A DNA stretch of 64,000 nucleotides from a virus: positions 1 to 64,000 of IMG/VR virus record IMGVR_UViG_3300026521_000466. The stretch is one strand, 5' to 3'. A program made the position numbers and the translations under genes. The notes below the pieces were generated by a model. It was not told where the DNA came from. It was given only the letters and a program-made list of their open reading frames with translations, and made no database searches. Positions 10,207-50,665 of this stretch are shown here, piece after piece (position 1 is the first letter of the stretch; every line of letters begins with the position of its first letter).

Positions 10207-12369
10207 ATGAACATTAGAAATGCTACTCCTATGCATTACATGGATGGTATGAAAGATGAGAGTGCGGGCGGTGTATTCCCCGAACCAAAAGGGCTGTCAC
10301 AATTCCAACCTCTTATTATATCCCATGCAGTAAAAGGACCATATGGTGAGTTTGAATGTACCGGTAAAGAACTCGAAGCTATTTTTGGCCTTGATACAAT
10401 CAACCCACTCAGCAAGTTTTACACGCACCAAACACACATGGCGTCAAAGATATTGAAGGCAGGTGGCGTTGTCAGTTTTAAAAGACTGCAATATATTAAT
10501 TCTCCACGAACACTACCTTATAACGTAGGCGATCCGGATGACACCAATGGTATTGCTAACATTGCATACTATTTGGTAATTACCGATGAGATCACAAGAA
10601 AACCATTCCTTAGAAATCAGGACGGTACTGTCGAAATGGTTGATGGGGTTCCACAAGAAGACCCAAATGGTGATGACATACAAGTTAAATATGCTATGCT
10701 TACCGCAAAGTATATACCGCAGTATAATGAAGATACGCAACTCTCTTCAATCATGGTAGAAGATGGAATGACCATATTTGGACAAACTGTAGATATTACA
10801 GCGTATCCTCTTTTTGTAGTTCCTGCTGAGGCTCACGGTGAATACTATAATAATATTGGTGTTGCGCTTACTGTTGCTGATGACATTGATATGGTTACAA
10901 AAGGGATGTTCCCATTCCAATTTTCACTGGTTGATAAGTCTACTGGTAGAGCAAAGATACATACAACAATTAATGAGGCAAAAGGTGCTAAGTTTACATT
11001 TAGACCAGATTCAAGTCACCCGTTGACAAATGCTTCTGTAACATTTGAAGATCTCATACCTCATGATTTCGGTAATTATACCGATGCTGATTATGAAGTA
11101 AAACCATATACTATTGGGGATGTTCGCTTGCTGAGAAATTATGTAAGTGATGTCACTATGATGGTGTCTGGTAGAGAGCTTGAGGGGTACAATGGCGTAT
11201 TGCCTGGATACTCAGATTATTCTGCTGGTGATGTTTCTGCATTACTCAACGAGCAGTATCTTGCAAATATTGTTGATTTTAAACACTCCAACGGTGCACT
11301 TTTCGAGTATACTAGATATGCATATAGTGGAGTATTGTCAGACCAAGCTAAAGCAGCGGTCGGTGTGAGAGTTCAAAGTACAATGTCTACACCTACTTAT
11401 ATGCAAGGTGGATATGACGGAGCAGTATTTGATAACGATGCATTTGAGGCAGCTATTGTAACAGAGCTGAAAGATGGATTTGGTGATCCTGCGAGCAGAT
11501 TGAACAATATGGCGATCAGTAGATTCTCTACATTTATCGATACTGGGTTCAGTGCAGCAACCAAGACAGAGTTTGGTGTAGTGCTTTCAAATAGAAAAGA
11601 CTTAAATCTCATTGGTGCGACTGCGTTCCTTAACAAACAGAACAAGAAACAAGAGAATGATGAAGCTATATCAATGGCGGCCATTCTTAACAGTATGTAT
11701 TCTATCTATACAGAATCAGAGCTCTACAACACACCTACATTCAGATACTGTATTGTTATGGGAAGTGGACTTTCCAGACATGAAAACTACAGATATCATC
11801 TACCATTAACATACGACTTCGTATATAAGAACGTAAGAATGTTTGGTGGTAAAGACGGTAAGTGGAACACTAAATATGAGTTCTCTGCAAGAGGTGGTAA
11901 TAACATTACCGAGCAAACAGATATCTATCCTGATTTTGTGCCTGACACTATCAAGAACAAACTATGGACATCTAACCTTATCTGGCCTCAAGGTAAAGAT
12001 AAACAGACATGGATATACCCAGCAATGCAAACAGGTTATAACGACGATACTTCAGTTGCAAACGGATGGTATTCAGTTATTGCAGACTGTTATGCGCAAA
12101 AAGTACTGAATGAAACATTCTTGTACCTGGTAGGTGATCAAGTGATGACCCGTACAGAATATAAAGATGAGTTTATTCGTTATGCATCAGCTATGTTGTC
12201 AGCAGAACACTTCGGTAATATTATTGAAGCTAAAGTAGTACTGCACTATACAAAAGAGGATGAACAAAGAGGTTACTCAGCACATGCGTATGTTGAACTA
12301 TATGTTCCTAACATGAAAACAGTGATAAATTCACATGTTGTTATGAAGCGTATTGATAACCTAGTATAA
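10207..12369 (+). CDS. contractile tail sheath protein
   Basis: A 720-residue protein with the length and position of the phiKZ gp29-type sheath, directly ahead of the tube gene. The C-terminal part (about 480-720) has the compact alpha/beta pattern of sheath C-terminal domains, closing with strands ...AHAYVELYVPNMKTVI. The sheath surrounds the tail tube and contracts to drive it through the envelope. It has its own 124-base leader with a TTGAATATGT element (10127-10136) and AGAAAGGACACTAA before the ATG, consistent with separate strong late expression. Its coding DNA has more C/G-ending codons than its neighbours, as expected for an abundant protein. Confidence 0.85.
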   Translation: MNIRNATPMHYMDGMKDESAGGVFPEPKGLSQFQPLIISHAVKGPYGEFECTGKELEAIFGLDTINPLSKFYTHQTHMASKILKAGGVVSFKRLQYINSPRTLPYNVGDPDDTNGIANIAYYLVITDEITRKPFLRNQDGTVEMVDGVPQEDPNGDDIQVKYAMLTAKYIPQYNEDTQLSSIMVEDGMTIFGQTVDITAYPLFVVPAEAHGEYYNNIGVALTVADDIDMVTKGMFPFQFSLVDKSTGRAKIHTTINEAKGAKFTFRPDSSHPLTNASVTFEDLIPHDFGNYTDADYEVKPYTIGDVRLLRNYVSDVTMMVSGRELEGYNGVLPGYSDYSAGDVSALLNEQYLANIVDFKHSNGALFEYTRYAYSGVLSDQAKAAVGVRVQSTMSTPTYMQGGYDGAVFDNDAFEAAIVTELKDGFGDPASRLNNMAISRFSTFIDTGFSAATKTEFGVVLSNRKDLNLIGATAFLNKQNKKQENDEAISMAAILNSMYSIYTESELYNTPTFRYCIVMGSGLSRHENYRYHLPLTYDFVYKNVRMFGGKDGKWNTKYEFSARGGNNITEQTDIYPDFVPDTIKNKLWTSNLIWPQGKDKQTWIYPAMQTGYNDDTSVANGWYSVIADCYAQKVLNETFLYLVGDQVMTRTEYKDEFIRYASAMLSAEHFGNIIEAKVVLHYTKEDEQRGYSAHAYVELYVPNMKTVINSHVVMKRIDNLV

Positions 12370-18395: not shown

Positions 18396-21300
18396 TTAAA
18401 AATTACCCTCTGCAAATCTTTTGTTCATTTCCATCAGTATCAAGTTTGTTGTAGCTATATCCTCTGGCGAGTTTACGATTCTTGCGCCCACACTTCTTCT
18501 ACTGATTTTTACATCAACGCTTCTACCATCCTCGGTAAGTAATTGTTCATAGATATCACCAACTGTATTTTTAAGTTGGTTACCCACAATAATTTTATCA
18601 CCTATAGTTAAAGTCTTCTCTTTTTCAATATAGTATTTGATATAGAGTTCATCTTCTGCTAGAGGTTTTCCTTTTATAGAGAATGTGTTTGTTACCTTGC
18701 CTGTATAGCCATAAAGTTCTTTCATTACCTTATCAGTCTTTTTAACCAATGTTTGTAACTCATCACTCAGTTCACTCAACTCACAACGATAGTATATCTC
18801 ATATCGAAACAGTGTCCCTTTTGCTTCAGCATAAACGTTATTTGTTTTTAAGTCGTCTATCTTCTCTCTGCTCTTCTTGAACACTGTGTCACCAATATCA
18901 TCTTCTGTAGTTAGTATATAACTGAAAACAATATCGTTATGAGATACTTTTGATCCCAACTCTGCAAGCTCTTTTATTTTGATGTCTTTGCTAAAACTTT
19001 TTCCGTTTACTTTGGTTACTTTCGTAGTAAAGTTTTCGCTAAACTTTTTACTTACGGCACAACTATCTTCGTATGTTTCATCGCTCTCTTCAAGAGCTGT
19101 CAACGCAGTCTCACCTACTTTATAAACAATACGCTTTCTATTAAACATATCTCTTCCAAAGAATAGATCGTCGTAGAATATGATATCGTATTCATTTACA
19201 GTATCACCTACCTTTAAATTGGTAACACTCTTATGTTTATAAGCTAATCCACCTACCTCTTTGGTAGTCCATTCTTTTAGCTTGTAGCTGACCTCTTTTG
19301 TTCCATATAGTATCTTCACCTCTTTATCAGTGACTTTTATTACTTTACCTTTCTCAGTAGCATATGTAACGTACTCTTTATTCATTCTGTATGGAACTAT
19401 TGATTCAAACCCTGTTCTAACAGGCAGTGATCTTTGATTCTTGGTAGGTATGATATGAGCATTTTGAATGGATATATAGAGCATACGTTTACCATCATCG
19501 GTTGTTGACCCTGGCATTAACAATACACCGCTACTAAATACATTAGCTGCTGTTATTTCTGACATGTCAATGTCTTTTAAAACACCATATATATTATTTA
19601 TTTTCGGAGAGGCACTTAGATATGTAGTAATACCAATATCGGCACTATCCTTTGACGCTTCTGATATTATACCAAAGTTAGACGGGTCATATACACGGTC
19701 ATTCATTGCAATAGAATCTTTCTGTCTACCAAACTTTCCGGTGAGTGTAACCTCTTCTTTTTGTTTCATAATGTTTAATGGGTTCATGTCTGTGTCAAGT
19801 ACAAATGTTCCATCTTCCGATAACATCCCTAAGAGCTCGTATGGATTTACAGTAACTTTACTGGTAACCAATCCTTGTCTCTGAGTCTGGTCCCTTATAG
19901 CTTTTGCCATAATATGATAGAGCATACCATTAAGTCTCTCATACCCTTTAACCATAATTCCATCAGAATCATTCTGAGGTTTGTAGTAATCGTCCTTCAA
20001 TAATTCTGCTGTTTTATACAGTATACCAACAAATGTAGTAGGTTCTTTTCTTAATTTAAGAATATCTTCTGTTATTGGATCGATCCACATAGCTTTTAGA
20101 TTGTCAAGTTCTATAAAAGTTCTTCTCTTATATCCTATTAACATCATTAAGTCACGCACTACACTACGTATATTAAGGCTTTTGCTATCGCCCTCTTTAA
20201 GTTCGGGCATTACTGTCAATGCTCCCACAACCACTTCGGTCCAGTCTCTTTTTACTACATACTTGGTGTCTTTAAAACGAATGATATATTCATCATGTTC
20301 AGTAATTACTCTTTTATTCGCTTCGTGCTCTTTATATTTAACGCCTAATGTGTTAAACATATTTGTGATGCCTTTGTAATACATCAATACCAGAGCCAAT
20401 GGTATCCTTTCGCCAAGCATATTAATAGTAGCATATTCGGCTTTTATTTTTCTTCTATCAATTCCAAGGAATGTTATAAAGTCATCAACATCATTTCCCT
20501 TTGCATCTAACAACACGCCGTCGTTTCTAAGATAGTAATAATTATTTTGTTTATCTTTTCCTACTACAATGCCATGTTTTTTATCATGTTTTGGAAAGAG
20601 TTCATCTATTTTACTATAGTTGAACGAAAAGAATATTTTATCTTTTATAAATGATTTCACTACAGACATCATTGTAGTATATAAGAATGGCAGATGTACT
20701 TTTACTACAGTTGCTTTTCCCAATACCAGCATAGATATCTGATTGTTGTCTTTTAATTTTTTCAACTCTCTTAGAATGGACGCGGACTGTTTGTTCTTAT
20801 TCATCTCACCACGTTTCACAAACATTTTATTGTAGTATGACGTCAGCGCTACTTCATTAGGTTTGACTTTTTTAATAGGTACGTCAGTTTTCATTTTTCG
20901 CAGTCGGTATTTATTTGTATTCAACTTCATGTATCCCTCATCATCAAGTGCGGGTATTCTTTGGTTTAGTGTTATTGTTGTCCCATTTGGTGTTAACATG
21001 GGAGTTGATAATATTTCTATATCATCAGATATATTCGTATCTTTTTCTGTTTTTATTTCATTCGCAAGGTACCCAGATTTTCCAAAGGATAACAGGATTG
21101 CTTCTCTCTGTTTTTTATATACCTTTTTAATATATTGTTTATCGAATGCGTCCACTGTATTTTCAAGCATACCTTCGTCTAACACAGTGTTCTGTTTAGG
21201 AAGTTTTTTCATCTGCAATTCGATATCTTCTTTAGTAAGTTTTAACTCTTCTAATCGTTTGTTGTTTTTTTCTATTAGCGGTAGAGCTTTCTTCACATAG

Positions 21301-22397
21301 CTATCTTTTACCATGCCGTCATCTAACTTATCGTTGATGTACTCTTTGGCCGTTTCCTCAAATGACTCTTCTTTTGATATTACTTCGTCCATGGTTTCGG
21401 CATGGATGGAGATAGTTTCATCTTTTTCTAGTTCCTCTTCCACTTTTTTATTGTGGACTTCAATGAGGTCTTCAACATCATCTTCCTTACTATCATTTGA
21501 GATAGCTACGTCTGTTTTGCTATTTTTCTCTAGTTCTTCCAAAGTGCGCGGTGTTTCAAGACTGATTTTCATTAGATAAGTAATGAATATTTTCATAGCT
21601 TTATCTGGGGATACCCCTTTTATAGGTGTCAATATATCATTGTCCTCAGAAAGACTGAATAGATTTTCTATACTACACATAGTAACTTTTCCAAGGTATC
21701 CAAAAACAAATACTATGTCACTGCTCTCTATATTTTTTATTCTGGAGAAAACACTTTTTCCTTTTGTCTTTTCGTCGAACATTTTCAATATTTCAAGTAT
21801 CAGTATCATGTCTTTGTTTTTAACGATGTCAAGTGAACGATATCCATCTTTCTTTAATGCGTTTTTTATTTCATTTAGTTTAGGCATGGATCTGGGAACA
21901 GGCACTGTAATAAATATTTTCCTATCTGTTATTCTATCTGGTTCCATAGACGCATCGACTAAGGTCTCGATCAGATTTCTCTCTTTGTCATACTCTGATG
22001 CTTTATATTTTTGATATTTATAAATTGTATCTAATCTATACAGATCCAGCATAATAACTTTATTACTTTGTGTCTGATATAGTTTTTTTACACTTGGAAC
22101 AAAGTCAAAATCTTTATCCCTATCCATCTTTTTTGCCATGGTATTTAACATAGACTGTTTAATATTTCTTTTTGAATATTTGCCAGGCAACTTTCTAAAA
22201 TAACTGTCTAGTATCAATACTTTAGTAGGACCTACTATATTTTTGAATAGCGGGTTTCCTATGTATTCTTTGTGATACCATAAAACAGCACTATTCTTTG
22301 GAAACAGGAATTCATTACTGTTTATGATTTTTGGGTTAATGAAGTCGTATTGCTTCCTTACACCGAATATTTTCTCCATTTGTTTATATGTAAACAT
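18396..22397 (-). CDS. phage RNA polymerase beta subunit, N-terminal and central part (virion RNAP type)
   Basis: A 1333-residue protein. Around residues 895-925, RVYDPSNFGIISEAS followed by DSADIGITTYL aligns with the cellular beta segment VHPTHYGRVCPIETPEG.NIGLI. At 1266-1280, GDKIIVGNQLKNTVG corresponds to GDKMAGRHGNKG, keeping both active-centre lysines (K1268, K1276), followed by EDGRSVDVKISRRSVGAR. The chain stops about 60 residues later, so the C-terminal clamp part is missing; I find it at 46387-47046. The N-terminal third is divergent and lysine-rich. The gene is 11 bases downstream of the beta-prime piece. Adjacency to the tape-measure gene matches the phiKZ virion polymerase, which is packaged and transcribes early genes. 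Confidence 0.88.
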   Translation of the reverse strand: MFTYKQMEKIFGVRKQYDFINPKIINSNEFLFPKNSAVLWYHKEYIGNPLFKNIVGPTKVLILDSYFRKLPGKYSKRNIKQSMLNTMAKKMDRDKDFDFVPSVKKLYQTQSNKVIMLDLYRLDTIYKYQKYKASEYDKERNLIETLVDASMEPDRITDRKIFITVPVPRSMPKLNEIKNALKKDGYRSLDIVKNKDMILILEILKMFDEKTKGKSVFSRIKNIESSDIVFVFGYLGKVTMCSIENLFSLSEDNDILTPIKGVSPDKAMKIFITYLMKISLETPRTLEELEKNSKTDVAISNDSKEDDVEDLIEVHNKKVEEELEKDETISIHAETMDEVISKEESFEETAKEYINDKLDDGMVKDSYVKKALPLIEKNNKRLEELKLTKEDIELQMKKLPKQNTVLDEGMLENTVDAFDKQYIKKVYKKQREAILLSFGKSGYLANEIKTEKDTNISDDIEILSTPMLTPNGTTITLNQRIPALDDEGYMKLNTNKYRLRKMKTDVPIKKVKPNEVALTSYYNKMFVKRGEMNKNKQSASILRELKKLKDNNQISMLVLGKATVVKVHLPFLYTTMMSVVKSFIKDKIFFSFNYSKIDELFPKHDKKHGIVVGKDKQNNYYYLRNDGVLLDAKGNDVDDFITFLGIDRRKIKAEYATINMLGERIPLALVLMYYKGITNMFNTLGVKYKEHEANKRVITEHDEYIIRFKDTKYVVKRDWTEVVVGALTVMPELKEGDSKSLNIRSVVRDLMMLIGYKRRTFIELDNLKAMWIDPITEDILKLRKEPTTFVGILYKTAELLKDDYYKPQNDSDGIMVKGYERLNGMLYHIMAKAIRDQTQRQGLVTSKVTVNPYELLGMLSEDGTFVLDTDMNPLNIMKQKEEVTLTGKFGRQKDSIAMNDRVYDPSNFGIISEASKDSADIGITTYLSASPKINNIYGVLKDIDMSEITAANVFSSGVLLMPGSTTDDGKRMLYISIQNAHIIPTKNQRSLPVRTGFESIVPYRMNKEYVTYATEKGKVIKVTDKEVKILYGTKEVSYKLKEWTTKEVGGLAYKHKSVTNLKVGDTVNEYDIIFYDDLFFGRDMFNRKRIVYKVGETALTALEESDETYEDSCAVSKKFSENFTTKVTKVNGKSFSKDIKIKELAELGSKVSHNDIVFSYILTTEDDIGDTVFKKSREKIDDLKTNNVYAEAKGTLFRYEIYYRCELSELSDELQTLVKKTDKVMKELYGYTGKVTNTFSIKGKPLAEDELYIKYYIEKEKTLTIGDKIIVGNQLKNTVGDIYEQLLTEDGRSVDVKISRRSVGARIVNSPEDIATTNLILMEMNKRFAEGNF

Positions 22398-22408
22398 AGT
22401 TGTCCTTT

Positions 22409-24001
22409 TTAACGTGTCATGAATTTCATCATTTTGCTAGTGATAGAGTCATTCAGGGAGAGTAATGATTTACCGTCTGTACTAATATATAGTACATCTC
22501 TATTAAAGAGTTCCATAGTTTCCTCTATACTGTCATCCATCATCAGTGCTGTAACAGACATTTGATCTCCGTCGCGGTCGGCTCCAAAACCTTCCATTCT
22601 CATAAACGGAATATTCATTCCATGCACCCACTCATTATCCTGTGTAGGGTATTTATTTATAGAATACTTTTTACTATCAATTCCAACATATTTGAATTTT
22701 ACATTTCTTGTTTTTGTTGTTGTGTGTAATCCTAATATTACAGGTACAATACTTCCTTGCTCAGCGATAGGATATCTTGTTAATACAGCAGGGTATTTAT
22801 TTACAGTTTCATAAATAGATAGAAAGAATAACTCCCCGTATGTTATAGGTCTTAAATATTTGCTTTCTGGTATACTATGAGGGTCTGCATAATACGTGAT
22901 TGTTTCACCAGTGTCTTCCAATACTGCAAGGTAATGATCTTCAACCATAACAGGTTCGTTATTGATACTGCTATCCATTAGCATATTCATTACTTTGTCC
23001 AAACCATCGTCTGTTAACCAACGTCTTTTTACTTTACTGGTAGTTGGTATAGTAGTGAGCTTCATATTTTTATCAAATAGGTAAACATCATCTCTCTCTT
23101 CACTAATCGCATTTGAAATGAATTTTGATATAACATGGTGTTTTGTTATTGGGTCTAATGACTTTGTATACTGTAATATACCTACTTCACATCTATCTAT
23201 GATATCATCAGGTATCTCATCAAGTCTTTTCAATTTTAGCGGTGTCCCGGTAATAACGGTTCTACTTCTATACTCCACTGCACGACTGAAGTAATCACCA
23301 TTGATCAAACCTTTTTTACCATTTAAAAATCTCTTTATAAAGTCTCTAAGCAACTCTATTTTATTCTGAAGATTAAACATAAATGCATCGGCTGTACTAT
23401 CGTGGTCTATATTTTTCAATATTTGAGCAGCATTAAAGATAGCCCTATAGTAATCGTTTACCTCGTTTTCAATAACCCTATCATGTTTATCAACTTCAAA
23501 ATCTCTTAATCCAGCTGGGAGTACTAGCAATTTGTCGTTAGTGAGCGTTCCTTTCTTTTGATATTTTTTAAACACTTCAATAATATCATTACGTTCTGCA
23601 CCATCTCTCTTAGGAGGGTTTAGTTCATATACATGTTTCATAAAGAATGTAAAACCTGTCTCTCCATTGGCAATATCGCTGGCTTCAAAATCTTTTGTTT
23701 TGTTATTGAATACAGCATACGCTTTCCCGGCCATAATGTTCATATATAGTTTGCTTAGTTTTGTTAAGTAATAATAGATACGAGGATGTAACAGAGGAAC
23801 ATATATATCAATATACGCAAATGTTGTCATTCTTTTTTCGCTTCCTACACTGCCAAATATCCTTTGAGAATAGAGTCCGTTTTCGTCTATCTGTCGTCCC
23901 ATATTTTCAAACAGGTTTACTGTCGTTATCTCATTCATAAATCTTACATATTGTTTATTCGGAAATATTAATCCGAAATACATATATTCTTTTTCATTCA
24001 T
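22409..24001 (-). CDS. phage RNA polymerase beta-prime subunit, N-terminal part with catalytic loop
   Basis: A 530-residue protein ending shortly after the nucleotidyl-transfer loop GADRDGDQMSV (residues 473-483). D475, D477 and D479 match the metal-binding NADFDGDQMAV loop of all multisubunit polymerases; the usual Phe is Arg. Upstream, SRAVEYRSRTVITGTPLKLKRLDEIP resembles the beta-prime SGRSVIV.GP.L segment. The rest of beta-prime (bridge helix, trigger loop) is absent, as in phiKZ where it is a separate gene. I start at 24001 because AAGGATATGAG precedes that ATG; the frame itself opens at 24031. The 24002-24097 gap holds a symmetrical pair of CATTGATT elements. Confidence 0.92.
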   Translation of the reverse strand: MNEKEYMYFGLIFPNKQYVRFMNEITTVNLFENMGRQIDENGLYSQRIFGSVGSEKRMTTFAYIDIYVPLLHPRIYYYLTKLSKLYMNIMAGKAYAVFNNKTKDFEASDIANGETGFTFFMKHVYELNPPKRDGAERNDIIEVFKKYQKKGTLTNDKLLVLPAGLRDFEVDKHDRVIENEVNDYYRAIFNAAQILKNIDHDSTADAFMFNLQNKIELLRDFIKRFLNGKKGLINGDYFSRAVEYRSRTVITGTPLKLKRLDEIPDDIIDRCEVGILQYTKSLDPITKHHVISKFISNAISEERDDVYLFDKNMKLTTIPTTSKVKRRWLTDDGLDKVMNMLMDSSINNEPVMVEDHYLAVLEDTGETITYYADPHSIPESKYLRPITYGELFFLSIYETVNKYPAVLTRYPIAEQGSIVPVILGLHTTTKTRNVKFKYVGIDSKKYSINKYPTQDNEWVHGMNIPFMRMEGFGADRDGDQMSVTALMMDDSIEETMELFNRDVLYISTDGKSLLSLNDSITSKMMKFMTR

Positions 24002-24025
24002 CTCATATCCTTGGTTGAATAGTCT

Positions 24026-24067
24026 AATCAATGAAAAAAGACTTCTGATACTTCTTTTTCATTGATT
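24026..24067. promoter_or_regulatory. symmetrical divergent promoter between polymerase and tape-measure genes
   Basis: AATCAATGAAAAAAG (24026-24040) and CTTTTTCATTGATT (24054-24067) are inverted copies around 13 bases. Each copy reads toward one of the divergent genes, so both start with the same CTTTTTCATTGATT element. The TTGATT part fits the second promoter motif seen ahead of other virion genes. It could also fold as a hairpin; the promoter reading is favoured because transcripts diverge here. Confidence 0.45.
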
Positions 24068-24097: not shown

Positions 24098-27000
24098 ATG
24101 GCTGATTTTGATGATTTAGATATGGGTCTTGATGACCTTGATAATGAGATAGATAATATGGATATTGGTGGTGGGAACACTAACCTAAAAGATAACCGTA
24201 AACCAATTGTGAAAGCTGCGTCTAATGCAGTAGCTGGTATAAAAGAGAATATTAAAACTGATGGCGTTGTAAAAAACGCTAGTAAGATAATTAATAGCGC
24301 CATGCCGTCTGTCTTAGGCGACAAGGGAAGTGATGGGTTAAAAGAGGTTACTGAAGAGGTAATAGATAGTATAGATGAGGTAAAAGAGGCTACACAAAAA
24401 GCAGCTTCGCCTCTATTAAAGAATTTAAAGAGAACGCTACCCAAAGATAGTATGTTCTCATCATTTGTTGATAAAATAGCATCTGTCACCGGTATAGACC
24501 TTGACAGATCATCAAGTGCTTTGTCCGAACCCTCTGAAGATGATAAGATATCAGCTTCTATAACTGAAACTTTTCAAGGGATAACAAACAATCTAAACGA
24601 GACACAGACTAAGATGGCTGCCCTTAGTGCGAGTGTAGCAGATGAAAATACTAAAAGGGTATTGTCCAGTCAACACGGTATATTTAATGTACTTTTATAT
24701 AACTCAAGAATAGCAGATACATATTATAGAAAAAGTATAGAGTTAAGTTATAAACAACTCTTTGAATTGAAACGTATTGTTAAGACTCAAATATCTTTGA
24801 ATGAAATTAATGTTGAAAAACTTGATGCCATTGTAAAGAATACAGGTTTGCCGGATGCGATAAAGTTAAGAACATCTGAAGCTGTTAAGCGTCAATTCCA
24901 AGCTAATGTAGGTGAATCATTATATCAAACTATGATAAGTAATAATGATTGGATACAGACTGCAAAGAAAGGTATTCGTAGAAAAGTAGGTAATTTCAAA
25001 AATTCTGTAGTTGATGCATTTATGATCGGAAATGAATCATTAAATGGTTACAACGACATGAATGAAATGATGTCTGGTGATATGCTAGACCCTGAATTTA
25101 TGACACCTGAACAAATGGCAGCTATGTCCAAAGAAGGCATACTTGCGGGACAGGCTACAGATTTCGGTAAGACTTCCATAGGTCGTCTTATAGGTAAGCG
25201 CTTATCTAAAACGAAAATCGGCAGACGCATAAAGTCAAATACAGATTATGTAATGGCAAATCCATATGAATTTGCAAAAGAGAAAAAAGCAGAATCTACA
25301 GGTATAGCTAGTTGGTTATGGGGCTTGGGTGCTAGTGTATTGAAACCAGACACTATGTATCAAGATATAAAGATCAATCATAAAGCATATGGGATAAATG
25401 ATATTGCACAATGGGATGGTCGTTCATATATGACTTTGAATTCTGTAATTCCTGGCTATTTATCCAAAATGCTTAATGAGCTAATGACAATGAATGGGAA
25501 ACAACCAACAGATTTAAAGTTTGATTATACAAAGCGTGCGTTCAGATCTGTTTCCAGTGTTACTAAAGATTTAAGAAAAGAGTTATCGGATGAATACACT
25601 CAAAAGAATGTAGGCACTAGGTTTAATACTCTAGTGGATAGACTTGAGAATAGTTCTGATATAAAGCTATCTACAAAAGAACGTAGAAAGTTTATCAAGG
25701 CATTAGCTAATCATGAAGGTCCATTGGATGTGGACAGAATAGAGAAACAGATAGCTAACGGTAAGTTTATAAAAGGGCTATCCGCAAAAGAGAAAATGAA
25801 GTTTACATCTTTGATAAAGAATGCTGGCGGTGAGCAGTATTTCGATAAAGAAGGTAAATTGGTCACAGATTCTGAAAGAAGATTTGAAGTAAATGATATG
25901 CTTAGGTCAGTGGCTAATAGCAAAATAAATGCTAGAGAGAGAATTGAAAGACTTATAGAGGACGGTTTTAAAGAACCGCTTATTAAGTCAGGTATTGTGA
26001 CATATGATAAATATGATGATTCGTACACTATTGATTATGACAAGTACAATGATTTCAATATCTCCGCTATGATGGATGCGTATGATAACAATATACTGCA
26101 TATAACAAAATCCAAAAAAGAATCATATAGAAATGCACAAAGTATTAAGAAGGCAGCTACTGGAGTAAAAGAGACTACTGTCAATCTTTTAAACACTGGT
26201 AAAGAGAAAGCGGGAACCTTTATAAAAGATAAGAAGATAGACAAATATTTTAAAGAGAAATTTGGCATTATTAAATCTGGCGCAAAGGATATTTACAATG
26301 GCCTTAAAGGTAAAGTGGAAGAGACTGAACTATATAAAACAGTGGCTAACTATCTTGATGCTCAGCTGAAGCCTTTACGGGACGAGTATGTTTCCCTCAA
26401 AGCGAGATTAAAAGTAGCTGATGGTGAAGAGAGTATAAAACTTAACGCCATGCTAAAAGAGGTAGAGTCATCTATCAGAAGTATTGAAAAAGAGAAACAG
26501 TATTATGCAAAACTAAAGGCAAAGGCTCTAAAGACTAAAAAATATTTAGAGAGTTCAGATGCCTATTCTGTAGAGAAAGATATTATCAAGATTTATGGGA
26601 AATTAAAAAGCGGTGCCGTCAATATTATTGAGGATAGAGAACTTGACGTAATGTATAAAGATATTACAGACCTATCTGCTAATATAGCAAGTGGAACAAA
26701 ATCAATATTCACATCCATGAAAGGGAAGGTAAAAGATACCGAAGTTTATAAGCAGACTAAAGAGTACTATGATACACAGACTAAAAAACTAGAAGAGAAA
26801 GAGTCTATGTTAGAGGCGGCTATTGAAACACTCCCTCCTGAAAAGAGAAGTAAGGCAAGAAGAAAATTAAAGAAATCGAGAGTCAAAATAGCCAGAGGCA
26901 GGCGTAAAGCGGAAAAAGAGCTACAGAATATATCCAAAGACACCATACGGACGAAAGCCAGTGAGACAGGTGCTCAGATATTTGGTACATTAAAAGAGGA

Positions 27001-30000
27001 TATGAAGTATACTAAAATAAAGAAAGCTGCAAAGGATGGTATTGATAAAGTAGATGTCGAGGCAGGTAAGAGTGGTTTGACAGGAGCAATAAATAAGCTA
27101 GTTAATATACTATCTCCTAAGAAGAAAATACAGGGTGATGAGGATGGCGATGGGCATAAAGACAACTCATGGTGGTCTATTCTTAGAAACAGAAAAAAAG
27201 AGAAAGAGAAAGAGGATAGTAAGAAGACAGTTGAGAAAGAGGAGAAAAAAGATGAGAGTTTTTTAACTAAAATATTTAAAACACTTGGACTTACTCTATT
27301 ACCGACGTTAATAGGCAAAATGTATACAGCCACTACTACCGCATTCTCTATATTGAAGGACATAGGAAAATCAGTATGGGGCGTTGGAAAGTTCTTTGGT
27401 TTCGGAGAGAAAGGAATGAATATAACTTCAATGTTTACTACATTTGCAAAGTATATAGGCACTAGCATGGCAGCATCATCATTAATGTCTGGTGGTTTTG
27501 TGTCGAAACTCATAGGTCATGCATTTACCATGTTAGGCATGAAAAAAGTTGGCGACTTCTTCAAAGGTGCTGGAAAAGCAGCTAATGAGAGCTCTAAGAA
27601 AATGATGAAAGGTAAATCTGTTTTCAGTAAGTTACTGAATGTAGCTAAACGACATAAAGGGAAATTACTATTAGCTACAGCCGCGGCAGGTATGTTTTCG
27701 GCAACACAATCAGAAGCATCTGATGATTTTGAATTGCCTGATATTAATTTACATGGAGCAGAAAAATCTAAAGAAGAGGATTCGGTTAAGGAAACAGGAG
27801 ATGATAATAGCGCTATCAGTATGGGCACTGATATAGCAACTGCTATGGCTGGAACATATGTGGTTGATAAAGTTATTGATAAAGTAGTTGGTGCGTTTAA
27901 GAAAAAAGATCCTAAAACTAAGGTTGTTGAGGAGCAGGCTAAAAAATCAGCTACTGGAGCAACAAAATGGCTTAGTAATAAGATAAAGTTATTGAAAAAT
28001 CCGAAAGTAGCTAAACGAATTGCTAAAATGGGTATTAAAAAGATACCTGGCATTGGATTGGTTGCTAGTCTAGGAACATCTATTGCAGATATGGCTGCCG
28101 GTAAATATAAAAGTGCAGGGCTTGGCGTACTCAGTGGTCTTTTGTCTATGATACCAGTTGTTGGCACGGTAGCGTCTATAGGTGTTGATATGTATGCGGA
28201 TGAGCCATCTAAAATAGAGTCTAAGCAAGAAATAGATGCTAAAGACCTTAGGGCTTCGCAAATAGCTGATGATATATTAGCTAATGAAAAGCAAGCAGAA
28301 TCTAATAAGAAAATAAATGAGGGTAAAGTATTAAAAGATAGATTTGATGCTATGGTTGCTGACAAGGGTGTTGTTGCAGAGAATACTTATAAGTCTAAAA
28401 AAGGAAAAGCTTCTATTACTTTTTATAAGAAAGATAATAAAATAGTTGGGCGAAAAATAGTTAATGCCGAGGGCAAAGTTACAGCAGCAATAAATGTTAA
28501 CGGAAAATTAAAGACATTTGATTATGATGTTGATAAACAACAAGTAAAACCTCTTAAAACAATAGATTATACTAAAAAGAAACCGCATGCAATAGAAAAA
28601 ACAGAAGTTGGAAATGCTGTAGTTCATGGGCACGAAGAGACTACCGCTTCCACACAGCCGCCCAAAATAATTAGAAAAATAATAACTAAGGGTGATAGAG
28701 TATTATTAGAATTCATTTCTAATAAAGAGAGCTCCAAGGGGGATCGCGGATATAATATGGTTGTTGGTAATGTAGATATAGGTAATAAGAAACTCACAGA
28801 GATGACCATCTTAGAGATATATAAATTGCAATCTATAATTAAATCACAATATAAAAAATCAGGCGCAGTCGGTAAATATCAGTTTGTGCCAATAACACTA
28901 AAAGAAACTGTGTCTCAATCTAAAAATTTAGGCATTACTAATAAAACACTTTTTACACCATTGACCCAGGATGTTTTAATAAAACAGAGATTAATAAATA
29001 AAAGAAAATATGACCAGTGGAAACTTGGAAATCTTTCAGATGTTGAGTTTGCTTATGAACTGGCAAAAGAGTTTGCATCTATTAAAGTACCTGGTACAAA
29101 CCATGGATATTACGATGCCACCACCAGTAATGTAGGCACAGTAAACTCTAGTGCAGTAATTGACACATTAGTTAAAGTAAGAGAGATAGACGGGTGTAAG
29201 TCTCACCCCGATAATGTTAAGCACGATACGTCTAAAATAGCGGGCGAACATTCAAAAACTAAACAGGGCCAGAATAAGCAATCACAGCCAGCTACTGTCA
29301 GTGGTCCAATGGCCGGATTGAAAATGGCTATTAATGCAGTTATGGAATTTTTTGGTGCTGAAGCGCCGACATCATTATCAACTCAACCAGCAAGAGAACT
29401 TGAAGATGCAGAGGGCAGACCTACGGTAAATATGGACTCCACAGTAGGTAATCTAAATAAGACTCCTATAGAATTGCCAGGTGGTGTAGATGCAGAACTT
29501 TGCGGCATAAAGGCAAAAAGGCTCTCCGCATTAGCATTTGGTAAAGCGGTAGCAATGGCTAATAACAGACATTTTAAAGGCGGTAAAGCTGAATACCTTA
29601 TGGTGCACAATACAGCAGGATCATCTCTCTATTTAGGTAGGATGAAGAAAGACGGTTATGGTACACAGTTATGGATTGATAAATCTGGTGCTGTTACTAT
29701 CATAGGTGATATTACACAGATCTATTATCATGTCGGCCCTGTAAAACCAGAGTGGAAAGGAAAAGTTAGTTCTTATAATACTATAGGTATTGAAATGGTC
29801 TGTGCTTATAAGAATGGTGAGTGGGAACCATATACAGAAGCACAAAAGAAAGCGTTATTGCAAGTAGGTTCATGCATTATGAAAAAGTTTGGAATTGACA
29901 GAGATCATATACTTTATCATGAGCAGGTATCCTATAAAACAAAAGACGAAGGCCGAATAGGCGCAATGATGTTAAAAGGCGTGGATGTAGGCGATTCAAA

Positions 30001-30430
30001 AGAACCTGATCAAGTAGTGTCAAAGCAAGCTGATGTGAGTGCCAACGTTGCTATGCCGAGGAACCAGCATGCAAAGAAAGAACTAGATGATGCAGAAGGT
30101 ATTAAACACATGGTTGTAAATAAAACAACCAGTAAGAAAAATAAAGATCGTATATCCTCACTTTCAAATTCTACACTTGATATAATAGATCCAAGTGCCG
30201 ATATACTACGTGCGAATAATGATCTATTAGATTTAGGATATAAACGACTTAATACATTAGAATCTATTGAGAAATATATGAAGATAATGGCCGAGAAGGA
30301 CAATGCCACAATACACCATCATTATGATGAAAATAAGAAAATAATAAAAACTGAAAAGATAGAAAATGAGAATAAGAAAACCTTTGATGTTATAGAGAAA
30401 GATAAAGAGCCAAAAATAAAACTGAAGTAG
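24098..30430 (+). CDS. giant tail tape-measure/cell-puncturing protein with two peptidoglycan hydrolase domains
   Basis: A 2110-residue protein. The N-terminus is acidic (DDLDMGLDDLDNEIDNMD). Long helical and coiled-coil regions fill most of the chain, with a repeated module at about 735-760 and 873-900 (KGKVEETELYK and KGKVKDTEVYK). Hydrophobic stretches at about 1055-1110 and 1310-1370 resemble tape-measure membrane-active segments. About 1535-1690 looks like a lysozyme/transglycosylase fold: catalytic E in SNKESSKGDRGYN, then SGAVGKYQFVPITL. About 1825-1965 is an Amidase_2 domain with VHNTAG, YYHVGP, NTIGIEMV and HEQVSYKTKDEG. It sets tail length and opens the cell wall during DNA entry. 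phiKZ gp181 occupies the same position and carries a transglycosylase. Confidence 0.9.
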   Translation: MADFDDLDMGLDDLDNEIDNMDIGGGNTNLKDNRKPIVKAASNAVAGIKENIKTDGVVKNASKIINSAMPSVLGDKGSDGLKEVTEEVIDSIDEVKEATQKAASPLLKNLKRTLPKDSMFSSFVDKIASVTGIDLDRSSSALSEPSEDDKISASITETFQGITNNLNETQTKMAALSASVADENTKRVLSSQHGIFNVLLYNSRIADTYYRKSIELSYKQLFELKRIVKTQISLNEINVEKLDAIVKNTGLPDAIKLRTSEAVKRQFQANVGESLYQTMISNNDWIQTAKKGIRRKVGNFKNSVVDAFMIGNESLNGYNDMNEMMSGDMLDPEFMTPEQMAAMSKEGILAGQATDFGKTSIGRLIGKRLSKTKIGRRIKSNTDYVMANPYEFAKEKKAESTGIASWLWGLGASVLKPDTMYQDIKINHKAYGINDIAQWDGRSYMTLNSVIPGYLSKMLNELMTMNGKQPTDLKFDYTKRAFRSVSSVTKDLRKELSDEYTQKNVGTRFNTLVDRLENSSDIKLSTKERRKFIKALANHEGPLDVDRIEKQIANGKFIKGLSAKEKMKFTSLIKNAGGEQYFDKEGKLVTDSERRFEVNDMLRSVANSKINARERIERLIEDGFKEPLIKSGIVTYDKYDDSYTIDYDKYNDFNISAMMDAYDNNILHITKSKKESYRNAQSIKKAATGVKETTVNLLNTGKEKAGTFIKDKKIDKYFKEKFGIIKSGAKDIYNGLKGKVEETELYKTVANYLDAQLKPLRDEYVSLKARLKVADGEESIKLNAMLKEVESSIRSIEKEKQYYAKLKAKALKTKKYLESSDAYSVEKDIIKIYGKLKSGAVNIIEDRELDVMYKDITDLSANIASGTKSIFTSMKGKVKDTEVYKQTKEYYDTQTKKLEEKESMLEAAIETLPPEKRSKARRKLKKSRVKIARGRRKAEKELQNISKDTIRTKASETGAQIFGTLKEDMKYTKIKKAAKDGIDKVDVEAGKSGLTGAINKLVNILSPKKKIQGDEDGDGHKDNSWWSILRNRKKEKEKEDSKKTVEKEEKKDESFLTKIFKTLGLTLLPTLIGKMYTATTTAFSILKDIGKSVWGVGKFFGFGEKGMNITSMFTTFAKYIGTSMAASSLMSGGFVSKLIGHAFTMLGMKKVGDFFKGAGKAANESSKKMMKGKSVFSKLLNVAKRHKGKLLLATAAAGMFSATQSEASDDFELPDINLHGAEKSKEEDSVKETGDDNSAISMGTDIATAMAGTYVVDKVIDKVVGAFKKKDPKTKVVEEQAKKSATGATKWLSNKIKLLKNPKVAKRIAKMGIKKIPGIGLVASLGTSIADMAAGKYKSAGLGVLSGLLSMIPVVGTVASIGVDMYADEPSKIESKQEIDAKDLRASQIADDILANEKQAESNKKINEGKVLKDRFDAMVADKGVVAENTYKSKKGKASITFYKKDNKIVGRKIVNAEGKVTAAINVNGKLKTFDYDVDKQQVKPLKTIDYTKKKPHAIEKTEVGNAVVHGHEETTASTQPPKIIRKIITKGDRVLLEFISNKESSKGDRGYNMVVGNVDIGNKKLTEMTILEIYKLQSIIKSQYKKSGAVGKYQFVPITLKETVSQSKNLGITNKTLFTPLTQDVLIKQRLINKRKYDQWKLGNLSDVEFAYELAKEFASIKVPGTNHGYYDATTSNVGTVNSSAVIDTLVKVREIDGCKSHPDNVKHDTSKIAGEHSKTKQGQNKQSQPATVSGPMAGLKMAINAVMEFFGAEAPTSLSTQPARELEDAEGRPTVNMDSTVGNLNKTPIELPGGVDAELCGIKAKRLSALAFGKAVAMANNRHFKGGKAEYLMVHNTAGSSLYLGRMKKDGYGTQLWIDKSGAVTIIGDITQIYYHVGPVKPEWKGKVSSYNTIGIEMVCAYKNGEWEPYTEAQKKALLQVGSCIMKKFGIDRDHILYHEQVSYKTKDEGRIGAMMLKGVDVGDSKEPDQVVSKQADVSANVAMPRNQHAKKELDDAEGIKHMVVNKTTSKKNKDRISSLSNSTLDIIDPSADILRANNDLLDLGYKRLNTLESIEKYMKIMAEKDNATIHHHYDENKKIIKTEKIENENKKTFDVIEKDKEPKIKLK

Positions 30431-30453
30431 TTACCGGGACTGCCCGGTAACTA
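30428..30453. terminator. bidirectional terminator containing both convergent stop codons
   Basis: Eleven-bp perfect stem TAGTTACCGGG / CCCGGTAACTA around ACTG. The left arm holds the tape-measure stop TAG (30428-30430) and, on the other strand, the TAA stop of the 104-residue gene (30431-30433). Confidence 0.75.
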
Positions 30454-30745
30454 TATCTTTTAGTATTTCTGTATATTCTATTTTTTCAAGAAATATATTT
30501 AATAGTTTGATAAATAGTTCATCAAACTTCCCCGCCCGCGCTTTTAGTATCTTTGTATTAATGTGAGTTAATATTTTATTGTCCTCACATTCATACGTGA
30601 ACCAGATAACATCTCGATAATCTATTAGATCTCGCATAGGTATAATCTCTATAGGGTCTATTATTATATCACCGATGCGTTCCATTTCATCGTCAAATGA
30701 AATGGTCTCTTTAAATTTGTTCCTCATATACCCATCTATGTTCAT
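30431..30745 (-). CDS. hypothetical protein co-transcribed with the macrodomain gene, 104 residues
   Basis: No family recognised. Acidic N-terminal half with Ile/Asp-rich strands (GDIIIDPIEIIPMRDLIDYRD), then a strand pair around WFTYECEDNK and C-terminal helices. It begins ten bases after the macrodomain stop with TAGGAGGAGTAAA, so it is translated from the same early-looking transcript and may act in the same process. Confidence 0.72.
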   Translation of the reverse strand: MNIDGYMRNKFKETISFDDEMERIGDIIIDPIEIIPMRDLIDYRDVIWFTYECEDNKILTHINTKILKARAGKFDELFIKLLNIFLEKIEYTEILKDIVTGQSR

Positions 30746-30755
30746 TTTACTCCTC

Positions 30756-31184
30756 CTAGAAGTTTACTTTTATAACATCGATATCACTCCCATCAAAGAC
30801 TTCGTCTATAGCTTTACTCACATTATCTTTTGATAATCCACCTAAGCCACACCCTATTGGTGGTATTACTATGGATTTCATTTCATGGTCTTCCATATAG
30901 TTTCGTATACTTCTTAAACCAATGTATATCCAATACAGACGAGACGGATCTCTCCAATGCTCTTTAGTGGCTAGATGAAATATTTCGTTATATCCTTTGA
31001 TGTTACTTTTTGTTAATACTATATCTCCTCCGTTCAAACCTTGTGTTTTACAGACGCGTTTATACATTTCATAACTTTCGTGGTCTTTTTCCTTTACGGA
31101 AAGAGCCAATCCTTTGCCCATTACACCCTGTGTATTTACAGGATTAATAAATGCGTCTGCTTTCATCGCAAACAAGTCTGTCAT
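30756..31184 (-). CDS. DarG-type macrodomain protein (ADP-ribosyl hydrolase)
   Basis: A 142-residue single macrodomain. It keeps the ribose/ADP-binding motifs in order: FINPVNTQGVMGKGLAL (residues 12-28), LATKEHWRDPSR (71-82) and VIPPIGCGLGGL (106-117). The NPVNT.GVMGKGLA and K.HWR patterns are those of DarG and TARG1/ALC1-like macrodomains. DarG removes ADP-ribose from thymidine in DNA and neutralises the DarT toxin, an anti-phage defence. Here there is no DarT and no C-terminal DarT-binding domain. An early-type promoter lies 29 bases upstream, so I infer a counter-defence enzyme reversing nucleic-acid or protein ADP-ribosylation early in infection. Housekeeping removal of ADP-ribose metabolites is the alternative. 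Confidence 0.88.
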   Translation of the reverse strand: MTDLFAMKADAFINPVNTQGVMGKGLALSVKEKDHESYEMYKRVCKTQGLNGGDIVLTKSNIKGYNEIFHLATKEHWRDPSRLYWIYIGLRSIRNYMEDHEMKSIVIPPIGCGLGGLSKDNVSKAIDEVFDGSDIDVIKVNF

Positions 31185-31212
31185 GCCTCATCCTTTTTAT
31201 ATTATTATATGA

Positions 31213-31222
31213 CAATAATATG
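31213..31222 (-). promoter_or_regulatory. candidate leftward early promoter (copy 3) before the macrodomain gene
   Basis: Leftward CATATTATTGTC, a shortened match to the seven-copy motif, 29 bases before the macrodomain start. The 174-base gap 31185-31358 otherwise holds the GroEL-side hairpin and no gene I would support. Confidence 0.4.
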
Positions 31223-31324
31223 TCCCTTAGCTAGAAATCATCGCTCTAGTTATTGTATTTTTTTCATTTTTTCGCCTAGCCAGCCCTGCCATAAAACTGA
31301 TTAGATGACTACTCCTTGATTTTA

Positions 31325-31358: not shown

Positions 31359-32951
31359 TTAGATCTTATCACTATCATCGATGGTGATTGCCACTCTTGT
31401 AGTTAAGAGATTGCATGCTGCTGATACAGCGTTCTTTAACGCTGTTTCAGTTACCAGATATGGATCAACAATACCATGCTCGAAGATGTTATCAACTATT
31501 CTGTTTTTAGTCAAGTGATAGAATCTATTTTCTTCGCATGAGATACTGGCAAGCTGTTCTGCTTGGGTGTCATCAGGCGATGCATCATAATAATTCATAA
31601 TCAGCTGATATAGTGGATCGCATAGCACAGACCATACCACCCGTGTTCCAGGAGTCATATTTGATATATCACTATGATACTCTTTATATATTTTATTATA
31701 AATGCTGGATAACGCATTTCCACCCCCTGGCACTACACCCTGTTTCAATGCAGCATCTACCGCAGCTACAGTGTCATCGTATCTGTCTTTTCTCTCTTTG
31801 GCCTCTGCCTCTGTACTACCACCCACATAGATAGTGGATATTTGGCCTGATAGTTTAATTACCCTCTCTTCTAGTTTACCTTTTAAGAAAGGATCATCTT
31901 CTTCATCAATAGCTTTAGTTAATGCTTCGAGATGATCTTTTAATGTATCAGCATCAGCAGATCTTTTTAAGACGATCTCTTCAGTAGTAAGTTCAATCTC
32001 ATCTACTTCTCCTAATTTGATAGGCCCGCAGGATTCGGTTGTTGTAATGCCTGTATAAGCAGCGATATCCATGGCAGTGTCTTTTTTTCTTTCTCCGAAC
32101 CCATCTAGTTTCACAAAGACAATATCCAAGCCCGACTGTCTAATTCTAAGTTGTCCAGCTACTAGATTTGGTACTATCTTGTCAGCTATATCTTTTACGA
32201 AGATCACCAATCTTTTAGGCTTATTCTCTCCAAGACTTGCGATAATGTGTTCAATGTCTTCAGCACTACTGATCTCTTTATAATGAACCAATACTTTTGC
32301 ATTAACCATTGTATGTTTCATATCTACATTCGTAAAGATATCTCTCGATATTGGATCATGCCTATATGTAAGCCCGCTTGTAGTATGGACTTTATCGATA
32401 TGCGTCTGTCCTTCTTCTACTTTCACAACACCGTTCTCATCAGCTGCCCTATACGCATCCACTACAACTTTTGCGATGGTCTCATCTCTGTTTGATGATA
32501 TCATGGCAATATCATATGTCAGAGGGCTGTGTATGTCTATAGTCTTTTTCATATTACCCAATTCAGCAATGATTGGATAAATTGCCTCCTTCATATCTCT
32601 CGTCAGTTCGATAGGGGAAATGTTTTCATTCTCCATCATGGACCGACCAGCTATATATAGTCGTGTTGATAATAGTACACTTGTAGTTGTACCATCACCG
32701 GCAGTAAGTGCTGTTTCTCTAGCTGCTTGCCGTACAAGCTTTATTGCCATATTTTCAATATGGTCACGTGACTCAACATGTTCTGCTACAGTAACGCCGT
32801 CTTTTGTCAAATGGGGATCGCCTGCATAATCCTCGATAAGTACGTTTGCTCCACCAGGTCCCATTGTGGCTACCACAGCATCAAAGAGGGTTGTTAGCCC
32901 GTTCTCGATTGTATTTGTTAAACCGCTATGGCTGAAATGTGTTTGTTTCAT
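31359..32951 (-). CDS. groEL: phage GroEL-type chaperonin
   Basis: A 530-residue complete group I chaperonin. The ATPase signatures are intact: MGPGGANVLIE (about 30-40), LTKDGVTVAEHVE (48-60), TAGDGTTTSVLL (catalytic Asp in AGDGTTT) and DDTVAAVDAALKQGVVPGGG with the second catalytic Asp. The apical domain is recognisable (LDGFGERKKDTAMDIAAYTG for KAPGFGDRRKAML.DIA.LTG). The GGM-repeat tail of cellular GroEL is absent and the end is acidic (DDSDKI). No GroES gene is in the window. The phiKZ-like phage EL encodes a chaperonin that works without co-chaperonin, so the same may hold here. Early-motif copy 4 lies 60 bases upstream; AAGGAGTAATCAA precedes the ATG. Confidence 0.95.
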   Translation of the reverse strand: MKQTHFSHSGLTNTIENGLTTLFDAVVATMGPGGANVLIEDYAGDPHLTKDGVTVAEHVESRDHIENMAIKLVRQAARETALTAGDGTTTSVLLSTRLYIAGRSMMENENISPIELTRDMKEAIYPIIAELGNMKKTIDIHSPLTYDIAMISSNRDETIAKVVVDAYRAADENGVVKVEEGQTHIDKVHTTSGLTYRHDPISRDIFTNVDMKHTMVNAKVLVHYKEISSAEDIEHIIASLGENKPKRLVIFVKDIADKIVPNLVAGQLRIRQSGLDIVFVKLDGFGERKKDTAMDIAAYTGITTTESCGPIKLGEVDEIELTTEEIVLKRSADADTLKDHLEALTKAIDEEDDPFLKGKLEERVIKLSGQISTIYVGGSTEAEAKERKDRYDDTVAAVDAALKQGVVPGGGNALSSIYNKIYKEYHSDISNMTPGTRVVWSVLCDPLYQLIMNYYDASPDDTQAEQLASISCEENRFYHLTKNRIVDNIFEHGIVDPYLVTETALKNAVSAACNLLTTRVAITIDDSDKI

Positions 32952-33000: not shown

Positions 33001-33021
33001 CTATACACCATAATAATATAC
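33001..33021 (-). promoter_or_regulatory. candidate leftward early promoter (copy 4) before GroEL
   Basis: Leftward GTATATTATTATGGTGTATAG. The only start codon it can serve is that of GroEL, 60 bases away, because the next gene upstream (33081-33194) is also leftward. Confidence 0.5.
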
Positions 33022-37367: not shown

Positions 37368-37383
37368 CTACTATAATAATATA
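37368..37383 (-). promoter_or_regulatory. candidate leftward early promoter (copy 6)
   Basis: Leftward TATATTATTATAGTAG, 35 bases before the ATG of the 125-residue gene. The gene on its other side also runs leftward and ends here, so the element can only serve leftward transcription. Confidence 0.55.
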
Positions 37384-37391
37384 TAAATGTA

Positions 37392-49888: not shown

Positions 49889-49918
49889 TAGTCTGTATGG
49901 CATATGCCATACAGACTA
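49889..49918 (-). terminator. 30-base perfect palindrome containing the dUTPase stop codon
   Basis: Arms TAGTCTGTATGGCAT and ATGCCATACAGACTA are exact reverse complements. The dUTPase-type gene's TAG stop (49916-49918) is the end of the right arm. Confidence 0.7.
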
Positions 49919-50665
49919 TACTACCATGTCATGATAAGTATCATGCAATGCATTATACATATTATCAAATGTCAACTCATCATGTAGTAACAAGTGTTCT
50001 TTAATTTCATTCATTACTACATTATCTTCTACTTCACCCCATTGTTTTACATATGTTCCATCTTGATATCCATTATTAAGCCTCAAGTAGTTCAATGCAT
50101 TCTTTGAAATGTATAACTCATATATTTCGTTCCATTCCATATTGAGGTATGACATCATCACCATTAATACAGACATACTATTTCGAGCTGCCTCAGCCTG
50201 ACTATGTTGTATTACTGCATTGTTAAGAGCTAGAATATGAAATATAAAATTATTTAGTAGCACCCGTACTTTAAAGATATCGAATTCTTTACCCTCTATC
50301 ACATACTCATCATTCTTAGTCTCACCATTGTACTTAAAGGTTACAACTATGTCATCAAACAAACCGGTCAGTGTTTCATGCTTGAAATCTCTTATTTTCA
50401 TAACATATATGATAAGAGAGATGACAAAGTGTAGTAGATCAATTAGTTCCACCTTAGCGTTTTCAAAATCATCACCGCTGTATTTCCAATGTTTCCAGTC
50501 AAAGCTATCTATGAATTCGGCTGCCTCTACAAGGATGGCAGTATCATATGCGATAGGTTTGCCTGTTTTACATATCCCTTTTAACCAATCTTCTCCGCAA
50601 GTTGCGGCATTCAGTTTACTCTGCACTTCAAACAACGAATAGAGCTGTTTCTTGTTTATTCTCAT
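49916..50665 (-). CDS. dimeric (all-alpha) dUTPase family nucleotide pyrophosphatase
   Basis: A 249-residue all-alpha NTP pyrophosphatase. The metal-binding helix pair is clear: EAAEFIDS (E47, E50) with DWKHWK (56-61), then ENAKVELIDLLHF with E73 and D76. This matches dimeric dUTPases, which hydrolyse dUTP to dUMP, keeping uracil out of DNA and feeding dTMP synthesis. Transcription is leftward; TCTGATATAAT (50694-50704) just upstream looks like an extended -10 promoter. It diverges from 50752-51327. Confidence 0.87.
   Translation of the reverse strand: MRINKKQLYSLFEVQSKLNAATCGEDWLKGICKTGKPIAYDTAILVEAAEFIDSFDWKHWKYSGDDFENAKVELIDLLHFVISLIIYVMKIRDFKHETLTGLFDDIVVTFKYNGETKNDEYVIEGKEFDIFKVRVLLNNFIFHILALNNAVIQHSQAEAARNSMSVLMVMMSYLNMEWNEIYELYISKNALNYLRLNNGYQDGTYVKQWGEVEDNVVMNEIKEHLLLHDELTFDNMYNALHDTYHDMVV

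Follow-up and report, generated by a model that had tools for sequence, protein, structure and literature searches.

A stand-alone DarG-type macrodomain in a phiKZ-related jumbo phage and its candidate role against DNA ADP-ribosylation

We analyzed a stretch of 64,000 nucleotides (the window) of the virus record IMGVR_UViG_3300026521_000466, which is 164,797 bases (164.8 kb) long. By its gene content, the source is a phiKZ-related jumbo phage with RNA polymerase genes of its own: two genes for multisubunit RNA polymerase beta-type subunits lie at 22409-24031 and 18396-22397 (PHROG E=4e-127 and 4e-256, together spanning 18396-24031 on the minus strand), a tail sheath gene lies at 10207-12369, and the product of 33735-34529 matches a family known from EL- and phiKZ-type phages. 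The window also encodes a dUTPase_2 family protein at 49916-50665 on the minus strand (Pfam E=1.6e-23). Among viral contigs, single-protein scans with the macrodomain described here, its 104-aa neighbor, a DUF7208 virion gene, and a NADAR-RecJ protein did not turn up a close relative of the phage. The genes and signals at the macrodomain locus are the following:

30428-30454, both directions: terminator-like hairpin at which the minus-strand unit and the plus-strand gene converging on it (24098-30430) both end
30431-30745, minus strand: gene for an acidic 104-aa protein (pI 4.8) with no assigned function, from the ORF, codon usage, and homology searches
30752-30757, minus strand: ribosome-binding site (AGGAGG) for the 104-aa gene, which overlaps the stop codon of the macrodomain gene (sequence)
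30756-31184, minus strand: gene for a DarG-type macrodomain of 142 aa, from family profiles, alignment, and a structure model
31191-31195, minus strand: ribosome-binding site (AAGGA) for the macrodomain gene (sequence)
31207-31223, minus strand: partial, weak match ACATATTATTGTCATAT to the early-type motif GTATATTATTATAGTGG, before the macrodomain gene (motif scoring)
31359-32951, minus strand: phage GroEL-type chaperonin gene (ORF), upstream of the macrodomain gene
33005-33021, minus strand: strong early-type promoter motif GTATATTATTATGGTGT before the GroEL gene (score 22 bits)

Both minus-strand ORFs lie where a first-pass annotation had put them, and all three of the macrodomain motifs it quoted, including KEHWR and PPIGCGLGGL, are present. 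Its early-type promoter directly before the macrodomain gene fared less well. The phage motif GTATATTATTATAGTGG occurs in about 25 good copies in the record, mostly on the minus strand and 20-60 nt before gene starts, and it fits the early-promoter form of phiKZ-related phages, which in phage AR9 is AAATATATATTAT-(6N)-G (PMC5312081; early promoters of phiKZ-related phages are also treated in PMC7598289). One of these copies is at 37368-37384 on the minus strand. The site upstream of the macrodomain, ACATATTATT, ranks 23rd among 178 genes by its 10-nt core (shuffle p=0.009, uncorrected) and 36th by the full 17-nt motif (p=0.10), with the downstream half missing. In AR9, deviation at a single position is enough for loss of an early start (PMC5312081). 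We regard this site as just a weak partial match, the strong one being upstream of the GroEL gene. From the GroEL gene to the macrodomain gene the minus strand has no terminator-like site, and read-through from the GroEL promoter could possibly give early expression of the macrodomain.

The 142-aa protein matches Pfam Macro (E=3e-14), and its best family model is DarG, with E=4.9e-40 to the NCBIfam DarG N-terminus and E=3.8e-40 to the PADLOC DarG model. The NCBIfam match (NF048014, DarTG2) scores 137.8 bits, below the full-length cut-off of 250, and covers positions 7-143 of the 338 in the model. An AlphaFold model built from 33 window and locus sequences has a pLDDT of 95. Among solved structures, the DarG macrodomains 5m31/5m3e and 5m3i come closest, with TARG1 next; Foldseek TM-scores are 0.91 to M. 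tuberculosis DarG (5m3i), 0.85 to ADP-ribose-bound T. aquaticus DarG (5m3e), and 0.84 to TARG1. The earlier view of DarG as the closest pattern is thus borne out by NCBIfam, PADLOC, and crystal structures, as is that of a single catalytic domain, the 142 aa including no C-terminal DarT-binding domain. Compared with its homologues, the ORF has a start about 5 residues late (31182-31190); the first beta strand is absent, and the model has five strands compared to six in DarG. We rejected a frameshift hiding the N-terminal strand, because the ATG is preceded, two codons upstream, by an in-frame TGA and, by eye, there is no start or strand-like sequence there. The frame itself is open and its codon use is coding-like.

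Alignment with DarG and TARG1, a check that the first-pass annotation had proposed, finds the catalytic residues in place. N17, K24, K74, and G113 of the query correspond to N22, K29, K80, and G119 of T. aquaticus DarG (TaqDarG), where mutation of each has a marked effect (PMC5179494). W77 occupies the position of TaqDarG W83, which is proposed to stack on the thymine (PMC5179494), and of A90 in TARG1. At the position of TARG1 D125 the query has G115, and so lacks the TARG1-type combination of lysine and Asp125. All of 97 DarT-linked DarGs and 62 stand-alone proteins have the catalytic lysine and N22. Two ADP-ribose contacts of DarG, T20 and N120, are replaced in the query by P (37/62 stand-alones vs 1/97 DarT-linked DarGs) and L (30/62 vs 10/97). 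These are the commonest letters at the two positions among the stand-alones, and at the sequence level the pair is a stand-alone signature.

To place the protein among its relatives, we used 80 loci from bacteria, 80 from viruses, and 8 annotated phage regions, and counted proteins of 280 aa or more as full-length DarG-like (n=105) and the others as short (n=63). DarT is present at 97 of the 105 full-length loci and at one of the 63 short ones. Among the top 80 IMG/VR matches, 48 are short stand-alone forms, and tblastn found relatives of the macrodomain in 270 phage records; according to Iyer et al. 2022, 56% of jumbo phages carry macro domains (PMC9503650). Phage DarG-like enzymes are already known in kind and common, and the novelty first claimed for this one does not hold. 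The nearest kin in the tree are the stand-alone phage proteins L096 and L097. The query has a long branch (2.17) and falls outside most of the DarG clade, its exact placement not being resolved by the tree, and is at most 47% identical to L096, its nearest relative. DarT, noted early on as missing, is absent from the whole 164.8-kb record even with a custom DarT profile, although the record may be incomplete. On sequence grounds this is a stand-alone phage DarG-type macrodomain, a single domain in a phage genome without DarT and with stand-alone nearest kin. It is not a DarG, having the macrodomain but neither the DarT-binding domain nor the DarT operon.

Compared with the DarGs of T. aquaticus and M. 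tuberculosis (5m31, 5m3e, 5m3i), the query shares the macrodomain fold, the catalytic lysine, and the equivalents of N22, K29, G119, and W83, but has no DarT-binding C-terminal domain, no DarT neighbor, P and L at T20 and N120, and no first beta strand. With the phage stand-alones (phiKZ gp104, 201phi2-1 gp167, and relatives; PHROG 335 and 30914), some of which likewise come from phiKZ-related phages, it shares a single domain of about 145-160 aa, the lack of DarT, and the same signature, but it is divergent and its N-terminus is shorter by about 5 residues. The fold and catalytic lysine are also those of TARG1 (C6orf130), whereas the query has no D125 equivalent and a W instead of A90. AdfB (ICP1 gp145) and AdfA (RB69 61.2) have the same proposed outcome, protection from DarT. 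Unlike the query macrodomain, they are proposed to bind DarT, having no enzymatic domain, and not to hydrolyze the adduct; AdfB is reported to resemble DarG C-terminal domains in predicted structure only (PMC11481870).

Two further genes with ADP-ribose-related domains lie in the record outside the window, both recognized by domain matches:

G000:134722-136623 (L014:10722-12623), minus strand: ORF of 633 aa encoding a fusion of NADAR, at the N-terminus, with a RecJ-like exonuclease (DHH/DHHA1/RecJ_OB)
G000:137920-138669 (L014:13920-14669), plus strand: protein with DUF488 and SLOG/DprA-type domains, near the NADAR-RecJ gene

The NADAR match of the 633-aa protein scores 83 bits, and its RecJ_OB match falls slightly under the curated cut-off. 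No phage record in our collection covers at least 80% of this protein at one place, and a literature search for NADAR together with RecJ returned nothing relevant. NADARs reverse guanosine-ADP-ribose in DNA (PMC11543638), and a phage NADAR was active in vitro, yet cells remained unprotected from DarT1 (PMC11125620). The macrodomain and the NADAR-RecJ fusion in one phage hint that it may have a repair set for DNA carrying ADP-ribose. Such a set might cover two chemistries, the macrodomain erasing thymidine-ADP-ribose and the NADAR-RecJ protein erasing guanosine-ADP-ribose or processing the damaged strand, which we offer as a tentative and rather doubtful idea.

The analysis established the fold, the conserved active site, the absence of DarT, and membership in the stand-alone phage group. 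Our best explanation, to which we give about an even chance, is a catalytically intact, stand-alone ADP-ribosyl hydrolase of DarG type that most likely acts on thymidine-ADP-ribose in DNA as a counter-defense. K74, the equivalent of TaqDarG K80, would hydrolyze the bond between ADP-ribose and the thymine base, and a DarT-type attack by the host on phage DNA would thereby be undone. We infer the enzymatic activity, the DNA thymidine substrate, and the counter-defense role from the sequence and its comparisons. The role on thymidine-ADP-ribose is suggested by the active site and by TaqDarG, whose isolated macrodomain suffices as an antitoxin and rescues cells from DarT unless it carries the K80A change (PMC5179494). 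Also in favor are the DarG best matches, the retention of W77 and of the mutation-sensitive residues, the lack of DarT in the record, and the presence in the same phage of a NADAR domain, from the family that erases guanosine-ADP-ribose. Against it are the two ADP-ribose contacts unlike those of DarG (T20 to P and N120 to L), the late start, five strands, and long branch, which leave room for loss or change of function, the failure of a phage NADAR to protect cells from DarT1 (PMC11125620), and the argument of Iyer et al. 2022, who suggested that phage macrodomains could reverse DNA ADP-ribosylation but favored small ADP-ribose derivatives as their main substrates (PMC9503650). The anti-DarT counter-defense put forward by the first-pass annotation is plausible for the macrodomain; the two-gene form that it was given there is not supported. 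A macrodomain that balances an ADP-ribosyltransferase of the phage itself was rejected, as no DarT, KptA, SIR2, or Nudix was found in the phage; a search for ADPrib_exo_Tox gave no match, but neither did its positive controls.

The sequence would fit DNA thymidine, RNA, protein, or small ADP-ribose compounds as the substrate. It is possible, though somewhat unlikely, that the macrodomain clears low-molecular-weight ADP-ribose compounds, the signals or toxic products of NAD-consuming host defenses such as Thoeris, instead of DNA adducts. This agrees with the general case that Iyer et al. 2022 made for phage Macro and NADAR domains (PMC9503650) and with the DUF488-SLOG protein, which brings another domain of the NAD/ADP-ribose network into the same phage. 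However, in both sequence and fold the query is nearest to DarG and not to MacroD or Appr-1''-p-processing types, and it retains the tryptophan on the thymine side.

Removal of ADP-ribose from RNA or protein, for example from CmdT-modified mRNA or from nucleic-acid phosphate ends as TARG1 does, we consider unlikely. After DarG, TARG1 is the structure nearest to the query, and its substrates include protein as well as RNA phosphate ends, but two residues of the query, G115 in place of D125 and W77 at the A90 position, are DarG-like. In addition, a bacterial TARG1-like enzyme is active on thymidine-ADP-ribose and inactive on 5'-phosphate-ADP-ribose.

The gene might also be a degraded or binding-only remnant, either an ADP-ribose sensor or a decaying gene. 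The missing first strand, the long branch, and the P and L at two ADP-ribose-contact positions point that way, but the open frame with coding-like codons, the full set of catalytic residues, and the confident model make this quite improbable, and P and L are what most often stands at those positions in the stand-alone group.

The first-pass annotation had joined the macrodomain and the 104-aa gene into a two-gene counter-defense unit. The 104-aa gene is likely real, with a codon usage of 0.086 bits per codon, compared to antisense ORFs whose 95th percentile is -0.041, and it starts 10 nt from the macrodomain stop; its pairing with the macrodomain found no support. No relatives of the 104-aa protein were found in phages, plasmids, viral contigs, the PDB, or four family libraries, nor near the 168 macrodomain loci or in 23 whole phage records. 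The sole weak match, L176 (E=0.009), was rejected as a relative because its frame holds an internal stop. A same-strand downstream gene lies within 60 nt at 30 of 52 distinct stand-alone phage macrodomain loci, and clustering the neighbors of these loci revealed no recurring partner gene, so we read the tight spacing as ordinary gene packing. Probably the 104-aa gene is a small phage gene peculiar to the lineage, independent of the macrodomain but on the same transcript. Its single-sequence AlphaFold model (pLDDT 36) is too poor for structural comparison. A DarG split in two, with the 104-aa protein in the DarT-binding, ssDNA-mimicking role of the DarG C-terminal domain, a role proposed for AdfB on its own, would suit the 10-nt spacing, the gene's own strong ribosome site, its acidic product, and the common terminator, but we hold it to be very improbable given the absence of relatives and of a recurring neighbor, and also of any detectable sequence relation to 96 DarG C-terminal domains (-0.5 bits), to AdfB (ICP1 gp145), or to T4 61.2, the counterpart by which AdfA was represented. 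These sequence comparisons are a weak negative, as T4 61.2 itself fails to match those 96 domains.

As a gene, the macrodomain is one among many. An enzymatic role against ADP-ribosylation has been suggested for phage macrodomains (PMC9503650), and in the literature searched we found no experimental report of one as an enzymatic counter-defense against DarTG. If the macrodomain acts on thymidine-ADP-ribose in DNA, it would offer a direct test case of counter-defense against DarTG by enzymatic means, as opposed to binding. The contrast in DarT linkage between full-length and stand-alone forms (97/105 vs 1/63), together with the NADAR-RecJ fusion, offers a concrete approach to the question of whether phages repair ADP-ribosylated DNA.
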